DNA of 33,365 nucleotides, from positions 1 through 33,365 of the forward strand of contig NZ_WTPX01000041.1 in the NCBI RefSeq assembly GCF_013036045.1. Direction: 5' to 3'. Below, in pieces: positions 3,833-13,949 of the stretch (positions are counted from its first letter, which is position 1; each line of letters begins with the position of its first letter). The notes below the pieces were generated by a model. The model saw only the letters and a program-made list of their open reading frames with translations. It searched no databases and had not been told where the DNA came from. This DNA comes from Alienimonas chondri (lineage in GTDB: Bacteria > Planctomycetota > Planctomycetia > Planctomycetales > Planctomycetaceae). The position numbers and the translations under genes are program-made.

Positions 3833-6220
3833 TCAGGAGCTGAGTTTCGAGGTGAAGGTCATCGTGCGATCCGCCCGGTTGCGGAGGTCGTCCAGTAGCG
3901 GACCGACCTCCGGCCGGAGGAAATCGCGGTGTGCGCGGCGACCGTTGACGCGCAGATCGACCTTCGCGTCGTAGTCGATCAATTCCGGGCTGAGCCACAC
4001 GTCGACCGGTTTCGCTCCGCAGCGCACGACGACGAGGTTCCCGTCCCGCGCCTCGGCGTCGATGGAGACCGTATTGACGCGTCCCGGCCCCGGATTGCGG
4101 CCCGCTTCCAGCACGGACGACGGCAGCCGCCCCGCTTCGATCCACCACTTCCGAGCGGCGGAGGGACGCAGCACGCGGGCGTCGATCGTCTTCGGGAACG
4201 GGGTGCGGCTGTGGCGTTCGAACCATTCCAGAATGCGGGGCGTCTCCTCCGCGTAGAACTCTCGGCCGCGGCCGAAATACTCGACGTAGGTGACGTCGTG
4301 GCCGTCCTTCATCAGATCCCGCAGACGTTCCGCGTCGTCGCCGCGGCGGACGGGACCGAACGGATCGAGCTGACCGCCGACGATGTACAGCGGGCAAGCG
4401 GCGGCGTTGCGCTCGAGGGCGGCGGCGAACTTCTTCGTCCGCCCGCCGACCGCCGCGACGGCCGCGAACAGATCCGGTCGAGCCAGGCCCACGTCGATCG
4501 CCGCGTCGCCGCCGTCCCAGTGTCCGGCGAGGTAGCAGCGATCCGGGTCGAGGGCGAAGCGACGGCGGGCGTCCTCCACGACCGACGTCACCGCCCGGAG
4601 TTGCTCGTCGCCGTACGGATGCCCCCCGCGGGAATTCGGCGGACGGCCGGTCGTCGCTTCGAGATCCAGCGACAGCACGACCATCCCGCGAGTCGTCGCT
4701 GGGCCGGGCACCACCGCGTCGCCCACCCGTTTCGCCCCCCAAAATGATGCTCCGCCGCCGGCCCCGGTGGCATAGGGACCGAGTACGACCAGCGTCGGAT
4801 ACATCCGGTCGGGGTGATACCCGGGGGGCAGGACGGCTTCGTAGCGGGGCGTTCCGGTGGGGAGGCGGGCGGAGCCGAACCGTTCGTCGCAGGTCAGCGG
4901 GAAGGGGCCGATCAAGCCGCTGGGATGCGGAGCCGGCATCGACGTTTCCACCCACGGCCGTAACCGAGAGACGACCGAGCGAACCCCGATCGCATCCACC
5001 TCTTCCAGACTCGCGAGTCGGTCGCGGAGCGCCCCGGCCCGCAAGCCGTCCGTCGTCGCGAGCGCCTCGCGGAGCATGCGACGAGCCTCCCACAGCCCGG
5101 CGGCGCGGCGCGGATCGGTATCGGCCCCGCCCGGCCCGGCGGCCCAGCCGGAGTAGGCCAGCGCCAGCCGATCCGCCGCGGGCAGGCTGTCATCGGCGGC
5201 GAATTGCAGGAACGGGTCCAACCGGTCGAGGGTGTCGGGATTGATCGACTCCGCGATTTCCGAGCGGTACGGGCGAAAACGGTCTTGTTCCTCGGACGAG
5301 AGTTCTCCATGCAACATGTCGAACCGCACACGCGCCAAGGCGATCCGGCGTTCGATCTCGTCGTACTCTGCCCGAAGATCGTTGACCCGACGGGCGATCG
5401 CGGGCGGCACCTGTTCCTCCGGGAAACCGATCAACGCCCGGCGGACCAGTTCATGCTGACCGGCGGCCCGGCGGACGAGCAGGTCGCTTAGTAAGGACGC
5501 CCCCACGGCGCCGCGCAGCCCCTCTGCGGCGGCGTCCGCGGCGGCCGCCAGCTCCGGGAAGTCGCGTCGCACGGCGTCCAGTTCGGCGCCGGCCCGGCCG
5601 AGCAGACCGGCCTCCGTGTAGAACCGCACCACGGCCAGTCGGTCGTCCGGGTTCTTTACGTCGATATCGGTCGCGATCATCGCGGCCAGACGCTCGGGCG
5701 GCACCGCGGAGACGTCCAGCCCAGTCCTCCACAGGTGCGTCGTGCTCGCCAGATCCAGCCCCTCGGCGGAGATGCCGCGGACGAATTGAACCACGTCGAT
5801 CTCCCCGTTGGGCGTCGACAGCGTGACCGTCCGCCGACCGTGATCGCTGAACGGCGTAACCCGGGCGATGCTGCCGATCGTCAACAACTCCTTCACCGGT
5901 TCCGGCTCGCGATCGTCCAGGATGAACTCCACCCGGCCGCTGCGGAGATCCTCGGCCGGATCGGTCTCCGCGATATTTTTCAGCCCGACGAAGGTGCGTC
6001 GGGTCAGCGTGTCAATCAGCTCCAGCGGCCGGTAGGCGTTCGGCATCTCCGGGTCCGCGCCGGCCGGGGGGAGCATCTGCTCATCCGTCAGTCCGCGCAC
6101 CGGCATGATCGAACCGACGTGCACGGTTCCGTCCTTCGTCGTCACCGACCCGGCCCGCGCGATTCCGGCGAGAGCCAACAGGCCCGACAGGAGAAGGGCG
6201 GCGACGGCCGGACGAGGCAT
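3833..6220 (-). CDS. Secreted alpha/beta-hydrolase-fold protein, catalytic residues lost
   Basis: A 795-residue protein read from the minus strand, starting at the ATG at 6220, immediately before a signal peptide ending Ala-Arg-Ala. An alternative start at 6298 would add 26 Arg-rich residues ahead of the signal and is rejected. Residues about 25-430 are an N-terminal region, first beta-rich and then helical. Residues about 450-690 resemble a polyhydroxybutyrate depolymerase/feruloyl esterase-type alpha/beta hydrolase: 'YEAVLPPGYHPDRMYPTLVV', then 'CYLAGHWDGGDAAIDVGL', then 'YIVGGQLDPFGPV'. The nucleophile elbow normally reads G-H-S-x-G-G but here has Trp568 in the serine position, and the expected catalytic His near the end appears as Arg653 in 'GRGREF'. 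A binding or structural role is therefore more likely than hydrolysis. It lies 194 nt downstream of purC, with no sign of a functional link. Confidence 0.88.
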   Translation of the reverse strand: MPRPAVAALLLSGLLALAGIARAGSVTTKDGTVHVGSIMPVRGLTDEQMLPPAGADPEMPNAYRPLELIDTLTRRTFVGLKNIAETDPAEDLRSGRVEFILDDREPEPVKELLTIGSIARVTPFSDHGRRTVTLSTPNGEIDVVQFVRGISAEGLDLASTTHLWRTGLDVSAVPPERLAAMIATDIDVKNPDDRLAVVRFYTEAGLLGRAGAELDAVRRDFPELAAAADAAAEGLRGAVGASLLSDLLVRRAAGQHELVRRALIGFPEEQVPPAIARRVNDLRAEYDEIERRIALARVRFDMLHGELSSEEQDRFRPYRSEIAESINPDTLDRLDPFLQFAADDSLPAADRLALAYSGWAAGPGGADTDPRRAAGLWEARRMLREALATTDGLRAGALRDRLASLEEVDAIGVRSVVSRLRPWVETSMPAPHPSGLIGPFPLTCDERFGSARLPTGTPRYEAVLPPGYHPDRMYPTLVVLGPYATGAGGGASFWGAKRVGDAVVPGPATTRGMVVLSLDLEATTGRPPNSRGGHPYGDEQLRAVTSVVEDARRRFALDPDRCYLAGHWDGGDAAIDVGLARPDLFAAVAAVGGRTKKFAAALERNAAACPLYIVGGQLDPFGPVRRGDDAERLRDLMKDGHDVTYVEYFGRGREFYAEETPRILEWFERHSRTPFPKTIDARVLRPSAARKWWIEAGRLPSSVLEAGRNPGPGRVNTVSIDAEARDGNLVVVRCGAKPVDVWLSPELIDYDAKVDLRVNGRRAHRDFLRPEVGPLLDDLRNRADRTMTFTSKLSS

Positions 6221-7561: not shown

Positions 7562-9160
7562 ATGGGGCAGATGCGGTTCACCGTCGCCCCGCCCGAGCGG
7601 CTTCGCAGTCAAGCGGAGCTGGCGGAGGTGCATGTGGTCGGGCCGGGGGAACGGGTCGAACCGGCGACAGTGACGCGCGTCGGCGACCTGCTGATCGTCG
7701 ATCGGCCCGGGACCGGCAGCGCCCGCCTGCGATGTCCGTGGCCGGTTCCCGGGTTCGGAACGCCCGTCGTGGCGACGTGCAGTTTGGCGGAACATGCCGT
7801 CGACGCGGAGCCGCATCGATTGGCGATCGAACTGGCGCGCGGCCTCGTGGGGGTGGCGCGAGAGCAAGTCGCCGCGGCCCGCCGCGCGAACGTGCTCCTC
7901 CCGCCGAAAATTCTTGAGGAACTCGGCAGGGCGTGGGGATCATTCGTTCAAGCGGCGTGCGGCGACAGCGAAGCCGAGGGCGTCGATCCTGCGGAGGCCG
8001 CGGAACGGTCCATTGTCGCGGCGTGTTCCGTGGCGGATTCCGTGGCGGCGGCTCGCGCCGACCGGCGCCTCAGCCTTCTAAAGCGACAGTCCTCCCACCC
8101 GCCGGCGTCGCTCGCGATCCGTGCCGGGCAGGGCACGGATCCACGGGAGCGTTTGCCGGCCGCGTTGTTCGGTCCGTTCCGCACCGCCGCGATCCCGGCG
8201 GGCTGGGCGTCCATCGAGCCGGTGCGCGGCCATCGAAACTGGACGGCGTTGGATGCGGCGCTCGATCGCTGCGAGGCCGTGGGCGCGGCGCCCGCCGTCG
8301 GTCCGTTACTGGACTTCAGCCCCGGCGGATTGCCCGATTGGCTTGCCGAGTATCGCGGCTCGCCGGGGAATCTGGAGAGCCTGTGCGCCGATTTCGTGGA
8401 GACCGTCATCGGTCGGATCACGGGTCGGGTGAGGACGATTGAAGTCTGCGGCGCCGCGAACATCGGCGGGGCGCTCGGCCTGGACGAGCCGACCCGATTG
8501 GGACTGGTGGCCCGCACGGTGCAGGTGGCCCGCGGCGTGGACGAAGAGAACCGATTGTTCCTGCGGATCGCCCGTCCGTTCGGGGATTATCTGGCCCGAG
8601 GGGAGCATCGGCTCGCCCCGCTGCAATTCGCGGATGCGCTGTCCCGAGCCGGCGTGGGACTGGACGGCGTCACGCTGGAATTGGCCATCGGGTTCGAGAG
8701 CGTCGGCACGCCCCCGCGGACCCTCGCCGGCTATGAGCGATTGCTGGCAGGATGGAGCAAACTCGGCGTCCCGCTGCGGATCTCGTTGGCGGTGCCGGCA
8801 ATCCCGCCCAAGTCAGGGGTTGAATCAAGCGACTGGCGTGCCGGCGGGAGTCCGGAGAAACAGGCCGAATGGATCCGCCACCACCTCCCGCTGTTCTTCG
8901 CCACGGATCCGGTCGTGGAAGTCGAATGGGCGCTTGCGCGGGACTCAGGACCGGGCAAGGCGCCCGAGCGGTTGAACGGCGGCGGTTTGCTCGCCGCGGA
9001 CGGCGCGCGACGGCCGGCGCTGGGCCAGTTCGCGGAGTTCGCTCGTCAGTTTGCCGTCGATCCGGACGCCGGCACGCACCTCGACATCGCGGTGATGGAC
9101 GACGAAACCGAGGAGTTGGGGGAACCGCCCACCTGGGCGGGCGACGCCTACGACGGCTAG
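7562..9160 (+). CDS. GH10-like TIM-barrel protein without catalytic glutamates
   Basis: A 532-residue protein without a signal peptide, so probably cytoplasmic. Residues about 1-200 are an N-terminal region, beta-rich and then helical. Residues about 205-470 follow the pattern of a family 10 glycoside hydrolase barrel: 'FGPFRTAAIPAGWASIEPVR' (start of barrel), 'ALDRCEAVGAAPAVGPLLDF', and 'TIEVCGAANIGGALGL', which corresponds to the strand that normally ends in the acid/base Glu (W-D-V-x-N-E). Here that Glu is Ala, and the later strand that normally carries the nucleophile (I-T-E-L-D) reads 'LRISLAVP'. Xylanase activity is therefore unlikely; similar planctomycete proteins are annotated as endo-xylanase-like, but their role is not established. 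The ATG at 7562 is preferred over one at 7571 because of the upstream -10-like hexamer. The fold assignment is by pattern only. Confidence 0.75.
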   Translation: MGQMRFTVAPPERLRSQAELAEVHVVGPGERVEPATVTRVGDLLIVDRPGTGSARLRCPWPVPGFGTPVVATCSLAEHAVDAEPHRLAIELARGLVGVAREQVAAARRANVLLPPKILEELGRAWGSFVQAACGDSEAEGVDPAEAAERSIVAACSVADSVAAARADRRLSLLKRQSSHPPASLAIRAGQGTDPRERLPAALFGPFRTAAIPAGWASIEPVRGHRNWTALDAALDRCEAVGAAPAVGPLLDFSPGGLPDWLAEYRGSPGNLESLCADFVETVIGRITGRVRTIEVCGAANIGGALGLDEPTRLGLVARTVQVARGVDEENRLFLRIARPFGDYLARGEHRLAPLQFADALSRAGVGLDGVTLELAIGFESVGTPPRTLAGYERLLAGWSKLGVPLRISLAVPAIPPKSGVESSDWRAGGSPEKQAEWIRHHLPLFFATDPVVEVEWALARDSGPGKAPERLNGGGLLAADGARRPALGQFAEFARQFAVDPDAGTHLDIAVMDDETEELGEPPTWAGDAYDG

Positions 9161-9248: not shown

Positions 9249-12200
9249 ATGGAATCCGCGATGCCCCGCCGACGCCCGTTTTCCCGCGGTTCCGCCCGCG
9301 ACCCGCGCCGGTTCTCGATCCCGTTCGCCGCCGCGTCGCTTCTGGGAGTCATCCTCCTGCCGACGGTCGCCCAGCCGCGAAATATTCAGGGCCTCGAAGA
9401 TCGCGACGGTCAGAACTTCGAAGATCCCGGCGCCGGATTTACGGCGCCTCCGCTGTTCCACCTCGATCGGGCAGCACTTCGGCAGATCGAGCTGAGCCGC
9501 CGCGCCCAGAAGGCGGGTCGCGTGGACGAAGCGGCCGCCCTCGCCGAACTGGCAACGAACGCCGAGTTCGATTCCGTGATGCCGGACGGCACGCCGGTGC
9601 AGGTCGCCGCCGCGGACGTCCTGCACCGCGCCGCCTCGGAAGCGGAGGCGATCGTCGAGCTTCGCCTCGGCGTCGCCGCGGAGGACGCCTTCGAAGCCGC
9701 GTTCGGAAGCGGCGATCCTCAGCGCTTCGCGGCGATCGCGGCCCGCTTTCCCGGCACGATCGCCGGCCGTCGAGCCGAGGCCCGCGTCGCCGACCTCGCC
9801 ATGGATCGCGGCGAGTTCGAGATCGCCGCCCGGCTGTACGCTCAACTGGCAGAGCGTTCCGCCACACGTCCCGTCGATCAAAACCGTTGGCGGATGAAGG
9901 CGGCGACGGCCTATCAACGAGCCGGGAAGGGCGGCCGGGCAGATGCGTTGGTCCGGCGAGTTCCAGTCGCGGATCGTGCCGCATTCCTCAATGCCCTGTT
10001 CCCCCAGTCGAACGCGAACGCCGACGACCCCGCTGCGGTTCTCGCGGCGTTGGGCCGGGGCGCTGCGCCGCCCGAGGCGCTGCCGGAGTGGCCGTTGGTG
10101 GGTCGCCTGCCGGGCCGTGGACTGACGTTGCCGGGGGGCGATCCGCCGGAGCGGGTGAACGCGGTCGGCGGTCCGCTCTGGACGATGAACCTCACTGACG
10201 AGATCCCCCCGACCGGGGCGGACGGTCCCGGACGGGTGATCGCTTCGACCGTTCATCGCGATCGGATGGGGCGGGGCGAATCGATGTGGCCCGCGGCTCG
10301 CCCGCTCGCGCTCCGCGAACCGGGCGGGGGAGACTCCGTGGAAGACGTGACGGTCGTCTTCACCTCGCCGTCCGGCCTGACGGCGGCGGACGCCGCGACG
10401 GGCGAGGTGCGATGGAGGAGCGGGCTGATGCTCGATTCCGAGTTCTATCAACTCACGCGCGGCGAGGAGGAAGCGACGCTCAGCGACCGCGGCCGCGGAG
10501 CGATCACCGGGCTGCGGAACCTGCACGAGGAACGCGGCTATCGGGACGCCGCTTCGGGCGCCCTGTCCGCGGACGATCGGCACGTCTACGCGGTGCGCAA
10601 CGTCGATCTTCCCAAATTGATTCTGGACCCGGACTTCAATGCGCTGATCTCCAACGGCGTCGATCTCGCCCGCCGCAACCGGGTCAACCGACTGGTCGCC
10701 TACGACCGTCAGACGGGCCGGATCGCCTGGACGGTCGGCGGCACGTTTACGAGCTTCAATTTCGAAGGACCGGAGAATCCGACGGACGAGGCGTTCTTCT
10801 GCGGCCCGCCCCTGCCGACGCCCCACGGTTTGGCCGTGATCGCGGAGACCGGCGGCGTTCTGCGACTGCTGGTTCTCGATCCGGACGACGGTGCCGTGCG
10901 ACGGGTGATGCCGATCGCGGTTCCCGCGCTGCCGACCTTCGAACCGCCTCGCTGGCGATTGGCGGGGTTGGGCGTCTCGGCGGCGGCGGGGCTATGGATC
11001 GTGCCCACCTCCGCCAGCGGCGTCGCGGCGGTCGATCCGCTTACCGGGGACTTTGTTTGGACCTATCGGTACGTCTCGGCGGTGCAGGTCGAAGACGGAC
11101 CGCCGGTCCCGCGGCGGGCATCGCTGTCCGCCTCGGAGGACGATCAGCCCAAATGGGTCGATCACCCGCCGAAGATCGTCGCCGACCGCGTGCTGCTCAC
11201 GCCGAGGGATTCGGAAGAACTGCACTGCCTCGATCTGGCGACTGGCGAGCCGATCTGGACCCGCCCGCGGGGCGCCGGCCGACAGGTGGCCGCCGTGGTT
11301 TCCGCAACTGACGCGGACGCCGCCGCGGATGGCATCGGCGCCCGCGGTGACGGCGATCCTCTCACGGTCCTCGTGGTGGGCGACGACGGCGTCCGCGGCT
11401 TGGCGCTCTCGGACGGAATCGAGCGATGGTTCACGCCGCTGCCCGCCGCCGTCGGCGATGCGACGCTCGCCGGGGACGCGCTCCTCGTCCCGCTCTCGGA
11501 TGACACGATCGTCGCCCTGAGGCCGGAAGACGGGAGCGTGCTGAATCGACTGCCGGCCAGCGGCGGGGCGGGGAACCTGATCGCCGCTGGCGGACGTTTG
11601 ATCAGTCAAACGCCGACCGAAGTCGGGGCGTTCCGCACCCGGACGGAGACCGACGCGGCGATTCAAGCCGCGTTCGCGGAGGCAGACGCAGAGCGGGCGC
11701 TCTCGCCGGCGCTGCTCCTCCGGGCCGGCCTCGCGCTGCAGGATGGCCGCCACGCCGACGGCGTCGCCGACTTGATCGCCGCCGCCACCGCCTCCGCCCC
11801 GGCGGGAAACGCGGGGGTGGCGGCGCGCCTCGCGGCGAGCCGTGCGCGGGATCGCCTGTCCGAGGTGCTGGCGGACGGGCTGCGTCGAGACTTTGCAACC
11901 TTCGATCCCTTATTTCGCACAGCCGCGAAGGTGCTGGGCAATCCGCCCACGGGCAAGGTCGCCCGCGCCTACGTTGACGGTCTGACCGATTCCGGCCGTC
12001 TGGCGGAGGCCTTTCGCACCCTCGCCCGGCTCGAAGACGGCGCCGCGCGGCCCGACGTCACCGCGGTTGCCTGGGCGCGTCCTCGGCTGCCGCGACTGTT
12101 CCTCGCGGCGGACCAATCGGTGCGAGGTGGAATGGTCAAGGATGTGGCCGACCTCTACGCGGCGGCGACCGACGGGGACTCGCTGGAAGCCTTCGCCGGC

Positions 12201-13949
12201 AGATTTGGTCGCCTGTGCAGCACGCCGGAGTGGCGCAGCGCGGCGCCGCCGTTGAAGGACGCCGTCGATCTGACCGACGCAGCGCTGCGACGTGCCGCCG
12301 CGATGCAGCGGGAGAACCGGAAATCGACGCCGCTCGCGGCCGCGCGGCTGTTGCGCTGGGCGGCGTCCCGTCCCGGAGCGGCGCCCGCCGATGAGACGCT
12401 CGCGGAGATCTACGCGTCCGCGGGCGCCTCGTCAGCCGCTGCGTATCTCCGCGGGCAGCCTGTGTCCGACCCCCTCCAAGGTCGACGGCTGGCAGTCGCC
12501 GAGGCCGACGATCGCGGGCGGGTGCCGGCGATGGTGCGGATCCCGGTCGGCTCGCTTCCGCCTTGGGAGACGGGCGGACGGCTGACGGGCGACAACGTCG
12601 GGCCGCACCTCCGCTGGCAAACCGACGACGGTCGGCTGGCGTTTTCTCACATCCTGCTCGGCGGACCGCCCCGTAGCGGGTCGCGGGCGATGTGGGACGG
12701 ACACCTACTGGTCGCCGGCCTCGGCGATCGCATCGTCGCATTGGACACGCTCACCCGGTCGGGAACGCCGGAGCCGCTTTGGAGAGGGAGAATTACGCGA
12801 AACGTCATCTCGGACGGACCGTTCTTCGTGCCTTCGGATTTCGATGCGGCGACCGCTCGCGGGAGCCGGTTCGACGGACCGGCGGTCCTCACGCCGCGTC
12901 AACTGGTCGTCCGGACCGGTTCGACGCTCACGGCCCGGCACCCGCTGACCTCGCAAATGCTCTGGCGACGCACCGGCCTGCCGTCGCAGGCTCGCGTGAT
13001 CGGCGACGATCGGTCGATCATCGTCCTCCCGCTCGGTGGGGACCGGGCAACGCGGCTGTCCGCGGACGACGGGTCGGAAATCGGCCTGGTCGACGTCGGT
13101 CCGGCCGGCGATCGCTGGCTGGAGCGCGGAACGCGCATTTGGTCGCGATCGTTCGAGAACGGAGCAGAGCCCCGAATCACGGTATCCTGCATAGACGTCG
13201 CCGGCGCCGCGGATGACGGGGTCCCGGATGATGGAGCCGAGCCGTCGGCGGCTCCGCGGACCGTGTGGTCCCGGTCATTCTCCCCGGATGCCGTGTTCGC
13301 TCCGAACGATGCCGCGACGCACCTCACGGTCGCGACGCCGGATCGGCGGGCCGTCGTTCTCGATCTTGAGACGGGGGAGGACGTGGAATCCGCCGATCTC
13401 GGGCCCGGCCCGGCTGCGGCCTCCGTGTGGGGCGAACGCAGCTTGGACGGTTGGACCGTGATCGTGTCGGACGAGCCGGATGCTCGGGCCGAACGTCTGT
13501 TGGACCCGTTCGGCCGTCGGGCGCCGGAGGCGACGGAGTCGTTCGCGTACGGCCTCAAAGCCGGCCGCGTGCTTTGGTCGCGGTCGGTCAGCGGGTTGCC
13601 GGGCAGCGTGTGGCAGCCGCCGAGGCTGCCGATTCTCGCGCTGCCGGGACGAACGCGAGAGGACGACGGAGGTTCGCCCTATGGCCGGCAGTTCACGCTC
13701 ACGCTGATCGATACTCGGAACGGAGCGGAGCTGGCCGAGGTCGAAAACCACGCCCCGCTCACGCCGATTGACTGGGAGATCGGACCGGCCGGCCCCTGGT
13801 TCGTCGACGGTTCCCCCAGCGAAGCCATCGACGTGCGACTGCGGACGCGCGGCCCGGATCTGTCAGTTCGCGTGCTCGACGAACCGCTCGCCGAACCGGC
13901 CCGTGCGACTCCGCCCTCCCCGAAAGGGGAGCCGAGCGAAGGATCGTGA
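9249..13949 (+). CDS. Giant secreted PQQ-like double beta-propeller protein
   Basis: A 1566-residue protein. The N-terminus has a basic Arg-rich stretch and a hydrophobic segment (about residues 22-42), consistent with export; a second ATG at 9261 is an alternative start. Residues about 60-260 are helical and Ala-rich, TPR-like. Residues about 360-770 form a first PQQ-type propeller, seen from blades such as 'LTAADAATGEVRW', 'LVAYDRQTGRIAW', 'GVAAVDPLTGDFVWTYRY' and 'ELHCLDLATGEPIW'. Residues about 800-1090 are again helical. Residues about 1150-1530 form a second propeller, for example 'LTARHPLTSQMLWRR', 'AVVLDLETGEDVESADL' and 'AYGLKAGRVLWSRS'. No heme (CxxCH) or clear quinoprotein active site is evident, so a structural or binding role is more likely than dehydrogenase activity. 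It follows the GH10-like gene by 88 nt. Confidence 0.9.
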   Translation: MESAMPRRRPFSRGSARDPRRFSIPFAAASLLGVILLPTVAQPRNIQGLEDRDGQNFEDPGAGFTAPPLFHLDRAALRQIELSRRAQKAGRVDEAAALAELATNAEFDSVMPDGTPVQVAAADVLHRAASEAEAIVELRLGVAAEDAFEAAFGSGDPQRFAAIAARFPGTIAGRRAEARVADLAMDRGEFEIAARLYAQLAERSATRPVDQNRWRMKAATAYQRAGKGGRADALVRRVPVADRAAFLNALFPQSNANADDPAAVLAALGRGAAPPEALPEWPLVGRLPGRGLTLPGGDPPERVNAVGGPLWTMNLTDEIPPTGADGPGRVIASTVHRDRMGRGESMWPAARPLALREPGGGDSVEDVTVVFTSPSGLTAADAATGEVRWRSGLMLDSEFYQLTRGEEEATLSDRGRGAITGLRNLHEERGYRDAASGALSADDRHVYAVRNVDLPKLILDPDFNALISNGVDLARRNRVNRLVAYDRQTGRIAWTVGGTFTSFNFEGPENPTDEAFFCGPPLPTPHGLAVIAETGGVLRLLVLDPDDGAVRRVMPIAVPALPTFEPPRWRLAGLGVSAAAGLWIVPTSASGVAAVDPLTGDFVWTYRYVSAVQVEDGPPVPRRASLSASEDDQPKWVDHPPKIVADRVLLTPRDSEELHCLDLATGEPIWTRPRGAGRQVAAVVSATDADAAADGIGARGDGDPLTVLVVGDDGVRGLALSDGIERWFTPLPAAVGDATLAGDALLVPLSDDTIVALRPEDGSVLNRLPASGGAGNLIAAGGRLISQTPTEVGAFRTRTETDAAIQAAFAEADAERALSPALLLRAGLALQDGRHADGVADLIAAATASAPAGNAGVAARLAASRARDRLSEVLADGLRRDFATFDPLFRTAAKVLGNPPTGKVARAYVDGLTDSGRLAEAFRTLARLEDGAARPDVTAVAWARPRLPRLFLAADQSVRGGMVKDVADLYAAATDGDSLEAFAGRFGRLCSTPEWRSAAPPLKDAVDLTDAALRRAAAMQRENRKSTPLAAARLLRWAASRPGAAPADETLAEIYASAGASSAAAYLRGQPVSDPLQGRRLAVAEADDRGRVPAMVRIPVGSLPPWETGGRLTGDNVGPHLRWQTDDGRLAFSHILLGGPPRSGSRAMWDGHLLVAGLGDRIVALDTLTRSGTPEPLWRGRITRNVISDGPFFVPSDFDAATARGSRFDGPAVLTPRQLVVRTGSTLTARHPLTSQMLWRRTGLPSQARVIGDDRSIIVLPLGGDRATRLSADDGSEIGLVDVGPAGDRWLERGTRIWSRSFENGAEPRITVSCIDVAGAADDGVPDDGAEPSAAPRTVWSRSFSPDAVFAPNDAATHLTVATPDRRAVVLDLETGEDVESADLGPGPAAASVWGERSLDGWTVIVSDEPDARAERLLDPFGRRAPEATESFAYGLKAGRVLWSRSVSGLPGSVWQPPRLPILALPGRTREDDGGSPYGRQFTLTLIDTRNGAELAEVENHAPLTPIDWEIGPAGPWFVDGSPSEAIDVRLRTRGPDLSVRVLDEPLAEPARATPPSPKGEPSEGS

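Follow-up and report, generated by a model that had tools for sequence, protein, structure and literature searches.

A probable exported pseudoenzyme built on an esterase fold in Alienimonas chondri, and the loss of the catalytic triad among its orthologues in the class Planctomycetia

What may an exported-looking protein do when it keeps the fold of an esterase and loses the residues that make an esterase work? The question is raised by a gene of Alienimonas chondri located at positions 3833..6220 of a stretch of 33,365 nucleotides (contig NZ_WTPX01000041.1, hereafter the window). The open reading frame and its translation run on the minus strand, as do all protein features given below, from an ATG at 6220 to a stop at 3833-3835, and encode 795 amino acids plus the stop. 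An earlier note on this DNA had placed the gene at these positions, correctly, and mentioned no strand. It had also pointed to the strings GHWDGGDAA (Trp568, codon TGG), GGQLDPF (Asp619) and GRGREF (Arg653, codon CGA), which are all present in the translation. The protein is an uncharacterised and almost universal member of the exported-looking repertoire of Planctomycetia, a class with unusual cell envelopes, and automatic annotation could label such proteins as esterases or peptidases.

The N-terminus is hydrophobic and signal-like, MPRPAVAALLLSGLLALAGIARA, and residues 1-23, ending in ARA, form a probable Sec signal peptide according to the sequence (6152..6220); a hydrophobic 12-mer within the first 60 residues is found in 63 of the 68 full-length orthologues. 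An AlphaFold2 model built on 64 aligned sequences (pLDDT 92.1, pTM 0.92) and a separate model of residues 22-435 (414 aa; pLDDT 90.9, pTM 0.77) both inform the first half of the chain, the latter consisting of a beta part and a helical solenoid. The N-terminal beta part (residues 24-168, 5717..6151) weakly resembles Sm/Hfq-like small barrels, the Foldseek comparison with Hfq being non-significant (TMt about 0.54, E 0.85). The alpha-solenoid (residues 175-417, 4970..5698) is TPR-like in the models: Pfam TPR_19 is detected in 14 of 54 orthologues (best E 5e-4), and the matches to TPR structures are short and weak (Z up to 7.6). A search of PDB sequences with a profile of the N-terminal part returned a single chance-level match, and the corresponding fold search yielded no match with an E below 0.001 and none whose Z reached 8.

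The alpha/beta-hydrolase domain (residues 440-672, 4205..4903) was delimited by its match to the esterase domain LC-Est1C (3wyd), which is the top Foldseek match (TMt 0.84-0.86) and superposes on residues 459-673 with a Z of 21.1 and an rmsd of 1.7 over 185 aligned positions in VIA-align. Given the quality of the model and this match, the fold is confidently predicted, with the core sheet, the helices and the elbow, acid and His loops predicted in the expected order. A loop at 521-536 (4613..4660) holds residues missing from most orthologues in the alignments. The chain ends with a mainly beta domain in the model (residues 678-795, 3836..4189), which is also matched in many relatives from other classes and in a 448-aa protein of the same genome. 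Sequence, model and 3wyd match thus agree with the earlier description of a full-length, well-kept protein of hydrolase fold, export being supported to the extent that the protein looks exported.

Within this fold, the catalytic site is destroyed. The best PDB sequence found by phmmer is again 3wyd (E 2.7e-14), and in this alignment Trp568 (4517..4519) stands opposite the Ser of GHSMGG, so that the G-x-S-x-G of the nucleophile elbow reads G-H-W-D-G. Arg653 (4262..4264), inside a conserved R-G-x-E loop, occupies the position of the catalytic His, opposite the His of PGGDHV. Asp619 (4364..4366) aligns with the acid region of 3wyd and is kept, with Glu at this position in the sister genome. The substitutions at nucleophile and His and the retention of the acid, which the earlier note had proposed, are hence confirmed by the structure-bearing homologue, and the alignment adds a third lost element to the two named there, the oxyanion His-Gly of relatives being replaced by Gly481-Pro482 (4775..4780). 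A pseudoenzyme is defined in PMC10211241 by the absence of conserved catalytic residues, and against its active-type relatives the window protein answers to that definition. The evidence for the loss of the catalytic site is strong. The earlier proposal of a pseudoenzyme, with fold kept and catalytic site lost, is well supported at the level of sequence.

A sequencing or assembly error is excluded by a second genome of the genus, whose protein is 83% identical and carries the same Trp (codon TGG) and Arg (codon CGG). Of the ten genes tested, nine recur in this sister genome with their order unchanged, and the remaining one, encoding a DUF2254 protein, lies at the end of the compared stretch. 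Identical residues in a conserved gene order therefore indicate that Trp568 and Arg653 are real.

Several known systems share the fold. The C-terminal esterase domain of LC-Est1 (3wyd) is the best match in both sequence and structure (profile E 2.6e-31) and has nucleophile, acid and His at the same positions, but it carries GHSMGG and a catalytic-loop His where the window protein has Trp and Arg, and its construct has no counterpart of the N-terminal and C-terminal parts. PHB depolymerases and CE1-type esterases (NF050058, TIGR01840, PF00756, PF10503) give weak matches near the elbow in the window protein and its orthologues, but the window protein lacks their catalytic Ser and His; the NCBIfam scores of PHB-depolymerase type stay below the curated cut-offs (29.1 against 150 bits for NF050058, 20 against 107.85 for another), and membership in the scl-PHA depolymerases of NF050058 was rejected on this score. 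Prolyl oligopeptidases of Peptidase S9 (PF00326) share the fold, several chains reaching a Z of 18-19, but the element list of the window model contains no propeller. The only Pfam match is a sub-threshold Peptidase_S9 one, and membership was rejected here as well (15 bits against a cut-off of 22.6, catalytic residues missing). With nucleophile and His absent and scores under the curated cut-offs, the protein falls outside the active esterase families against which it was tested. In its way of working it may be likened, without being classed with them, to alpha/beta-hydrolase proteins that have no catalytic function, among them NDRG and neuroligin, animal proteins in which the catalytic residues are lost and the hydrolase fold is kept; unlike these, it belongs to a set of bacterial orthologues that includes triad-intact members. 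NDRG3 (PMC7022630) serves as the comparison case. Among the papers covered by title and start of abstract, a coverage that leaves out most subscription journals, none described this family.

How widespread is the protein, and how widespread is its inactivation? A match was found in all 59 genomes formed by the window's own and 58 relatives, and in 393 of 397 genomes of the class Planctomycetia (189 of 191 genera), in a search restricted to genomes at least 90% complete in which two candidates per genome were scored and most rows are a single match. Named records with a match include Gimesia, Schlesneria, Rhodopirellula baltica, Stieleria, Isosphaeraceae and Gemmataceae. In a phylum-wide sample, 104 of 294 genomes gave a match at E 1e-20 or better; outside the class, among the matches listed, all start at profile position 361 or later and therefore cover the hydrolase domain and often the C-terminal part. 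The genome of A. chondri itself holds one full-length match, with 32 of 32 candidates scored, and the profile search adds five partial matches to it. One of these five, a separate 448-aa homologue of the same genome (contig C347; L002, L246), shows an intact-looking G-Y-S-A-G-G and T-G-H when the motifs are read by eye, and would provide a within-genome control for intact-looking motifs.

The census of the catalytic residues covers 165 distinct orthologue rows, that is 172 aligned rows minus two with unreadable triad columns, four repeated hydrolase sequences and one short row. Ser, acid and His are all kept in 36 of the 165 and the full set is missing in 129, a ratio that is not an unbiased share since 40 of the rows were chosen from the listed best-scoring matches in genomes outside the window's family, 33 of these 40 being intact. 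Among the rows without a full triad, Ser and His are missing with the acid kept in 74, all three residues are missing in 38, Ser alone in 14, and Ser is kept with His missing in three. Position 568 is occupied mainly by Gly (91 rows) or Ser (39), and Trp occurs in two rows, both from this genus. Position 653 holds His (50), Tyr (43), Arg (17) and then others, and in the loop around it R651, E654 and E659 are retained in 159, 154 and 156 of the 165 rows. The question whether the Trp/Arg pair is conserved among planctomycete homologues is thus answered in the negative, and a conserved Trp/Arg motif was ruled out, Trp568 being confined to the two genomes of the genus; what is shared by the 51-row clade containing the window is the loss of the full triad, which recurs elsewhere. 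In phylogeny-aware pairings among the orthologues, the association of Ser with His (8 pairs, median p 0.06) and that of Ser with the acid (8 pairs, p 0.5) did not reach significance. Forty further, more distant relatives were also compared, 39 from other classes together with L191, a 268-aa hydrolase with intact triad motifs from a genome of the window's own family (G105); the nucleophile Ser is present in 34 of them, and 32 have a complete triad. Six of these 40, outside the orthologue set, have no Ser, so that the loss is not special to the class.

The history of these losses was followed on a maximum-likelihood tree of 110 rows thinned at 62% identity, with the catalytic columns removed (the main tree). 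Partial rows were excluded from all trees, and the long outgroup rows L179, L181, L190 and L191 from the main one. An earlier tree, thinned at 72% identity, included 19 of the 40 outside relatives and the main tree 15, both selections having been made after the motifs were known and leaving out five of the six Ser-lacking relatives; 14 of the 15 have an intact triad. The 95 class rows form a single clade (96/84) among the relatives from other classes. The window falls in a clade of 51 rows (96/90), every one of them without a full triad, and the 15 triad-intact class rows all group within a single 23-row clade (100/99), which also holds three lost lineages, namely the Rhodopirellula/Stieleria-type (5 rows, 100/98), L204 with L209 (99/99), and L022. 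At least six changes are required on this tree, and the starred branches alone force five. When losses only are allowed, eight changes are needed, seven of them inside the class, one of these seven depending on a weakly supported branch that joins L037 to the Isosphaera-type rows (53/69).

A check tree was obtained by adding the five omitted Ser-lacking relatives (115 rows, quick method, SH-aLRT only). The 95 class rows remain one clade, the window's clade of 51 is still lost throughout, and a history of losses only still requires seven within the class; the total becomes eight changes, or 11 under losses only, with further losses outside the class. The Rhodopirellula-type branch now stands beside the intact group (18 rows) and not inside it as in the 23 rows of the main tree, and its displacement means that two or three losses nest in the intact group, not surely three. 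The conclusion of repeated loss therefore withstands the added relatives; the precise count of losses does not. One basal loss followed by one regain and later losses fits the main tree with fewer changes (six against eight for losses only). Nevertheless, retention of the triad in the intact group seems more natural than regain, judging from the GHSMGG and GRGHE strings that this group shares with its nearest relatives outside the class. The best reading of the ancestry is an active one, the protein being built on an ancestral esterase, as most of the distant relatives examined keep the triad.

The manner of the loss was approached through the 61 columns that are at least 95% conserved in triad-intact rows. 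In 12 Rhodopirellula/Stieleria-type rows, Ser568, Asp572 and His653 drop to 0 and the median column stays at 100%, a pattern that points to the site having been lost selectively. In the clade of 51 rows that holds the window, by contrast, the departure from the intact rows is broader, being as complete at three Trp columns and one Gln column as at Ser and His. The loss there is accordingly not surgical.

Taken together, we consider it likely that the window protein is a multidomain pseudoenzyme, exported and derived from an ancestral esterase, with a core job that is non-catalytic. Its layout would comprise a signal peptide, one or more small beta domains, a TPR-like solenoid, a dead hydrolase domain of esterase type and a C-terminal beta domain. 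From the architecture and the conservation, we infer a binding or scaffold role for the hydrolase domain, which would offer a surface for binding or assembly, and we presume that the TPR-like part docks a periplasmic or envelope partner. In the genus of the window, Trp568 and the oxyanion Gly-Pro would fill and disable the pocket. The enzymatic activity suggested by the residues retained in one group of the class would then be an addition on top of the shared role, the essential job of the protein being probably not catalysis. Pseudoenzymes are often described as inactive paralogues standing beside an active copy. The present case seems rather to be one of a near-universal orthologous protein that lost its enzyme site repeatedly: inactivation affects the orthologue itself, is seemingly recurrent, and occurs in a class that also has triad-intact orthologues. 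It may hence be regarded as a natural experiment on the non-hydrolytic roles of a hydrolase. The broader statement, that the esterase site of a near-universal exported protein of the class died in orthologues at least two to three times, and perhaps seven, with the gene staying indispensable, is advanced tentatively, as something a little short of an even chance. If true, the fold would have had a structural or regulatory primary role in these cells from the outset, hydrolysis being an optional extra.

Could the dead domain still act as a substrate sensor or decoy that binds an ester, acyl or polymer ligand and leaves it uncut? A role of this kind, which the earlier note had suggested in the form of a binding protein for polymer or ester substrates, draws on the fact that the closest matches in fold and sequence are esterases; the relatives include PHB depolymerase, feruloyl esterase and PET hydrolase. 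However, had an ester pocket been kept, less variation would be expected than residue 568 shows. The oxyanion Gly482 is kept in 31 of 37 intact rows against 19 of 132 triad-lost rows, and is thus absent in 113 of the latter (169 rows in all, repeats and near-copies included); in a phylogeny-aware pairing, the association of Gly482 with the triad was not significant (5 pairs). The bulky Trp at the elbow of the window lineage and the altered oxyanion position also argue mildly, as far as sequence can tell, against an intact ester pocket. A sensor or decoy consequently appears unlikely, though worth keeping in mind.

A second alternative holds that the site is changed and not dead, other pocket residues such as Asp619, Asp572, Glu654, Glu659 or Arg651 running a different reaction. 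Some pseudoenzymes have migrated catalytic residues, as mentioned in PMC10211241, and in the window's clade 86% of rows retain Asp619 and 98% retain Glu659; had the site simply decayed, such retention of Asp619 would not be expected. However, the triad-intact rows conserve these acid and Arg residues as well, so that no new function is needed to account for them, and the acid is lost too in Isosphaera- and Gemmata-type members. A replacement Ser or Cys nucleophile, which the earlier note had named as the observation that would overturn its proposal, did not emerge: column conservation across the window's clade revealed no newly conserved Ser, Cys or Thr in the hydrolase domain. The only Ser/Cys/Thr column reaching at least 80% in this clade, column 559, holds Thr or Ser in other groups too and lies ahead of the strand that runs into the elbow; the window protein has Pro there. 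With the remaining acidic and Arg residues identical to those of intact rows, a changed chemistry is less likely, and we regard it as improbable.

According to a third alternative, the protein is the envelope partner of a PknB-like Ser/Thr kinase encoded just upstream in many relatives. Planctomycetes have many Ser/Thr kinases. In the window's group, a PknB-like kinase gene lies on the same strand at most 800 nt upstream in 21 of 51 loci, these 51 being the loci within the L062-L134 set with at least 1.5 kb of upstream sequence; the upstream kinase has an HRD motif by pattern and a C-terminal membrane segment by eye. Nevertheless, no kinase adjoins the gene in the window, where it sits between a convergent DUF3500 gene and purC, nor in the sister genome. 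None was found next to the gene in the 15 loci of three other groups (10 of Rhodopirellula type, one of Isosphaera type and four of Gemmata type, the kinase of the Gemmata-type locus L136 being 1.5 kb off), and 11 flanks representing other families of the class gave no match to the kinase cluster. The upstream association is a lead, and a partnership with the kinase would be rather surprising as the general explanation. Across the window, the related loci and the flanks of the class, the gene neighbourhood indicated no function.

Decay under relaxed selection, with the gene on its way out, is the least credible account and was rejected: two or three catalytic elements are gone and the stem branch of the window lineage is long (about 1.2 changes per column), but the frame is intact and full-length, comparison with the second genome of the genus gives a dN/dS of 0.159 for the whole gene and of 0.185 for the hydrolase domain, and nearly every genome of the class has a match. 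Over the close pairs yielding a value, pairwise dN/dS in the hydrolase domain ranges from 0.02 to 0.18, values that are rough owing to the many saturated synonymous distances. The catalytically dead domain is under purifying selection.

Two further genes of the window lie beyond purC on the plus strand. The first, at 7562-9160 and divergent from purC, encodes a conserved protein of 532 aa that has no Pfam match, was matched in 11 of 80 related loci, and recalls, by impression only, a barrel of glycoside-hydrolase-10 type. The second, at 9249-13949, encodes a 1566-aa protein with matches to propellers of PQQ/BamB type.
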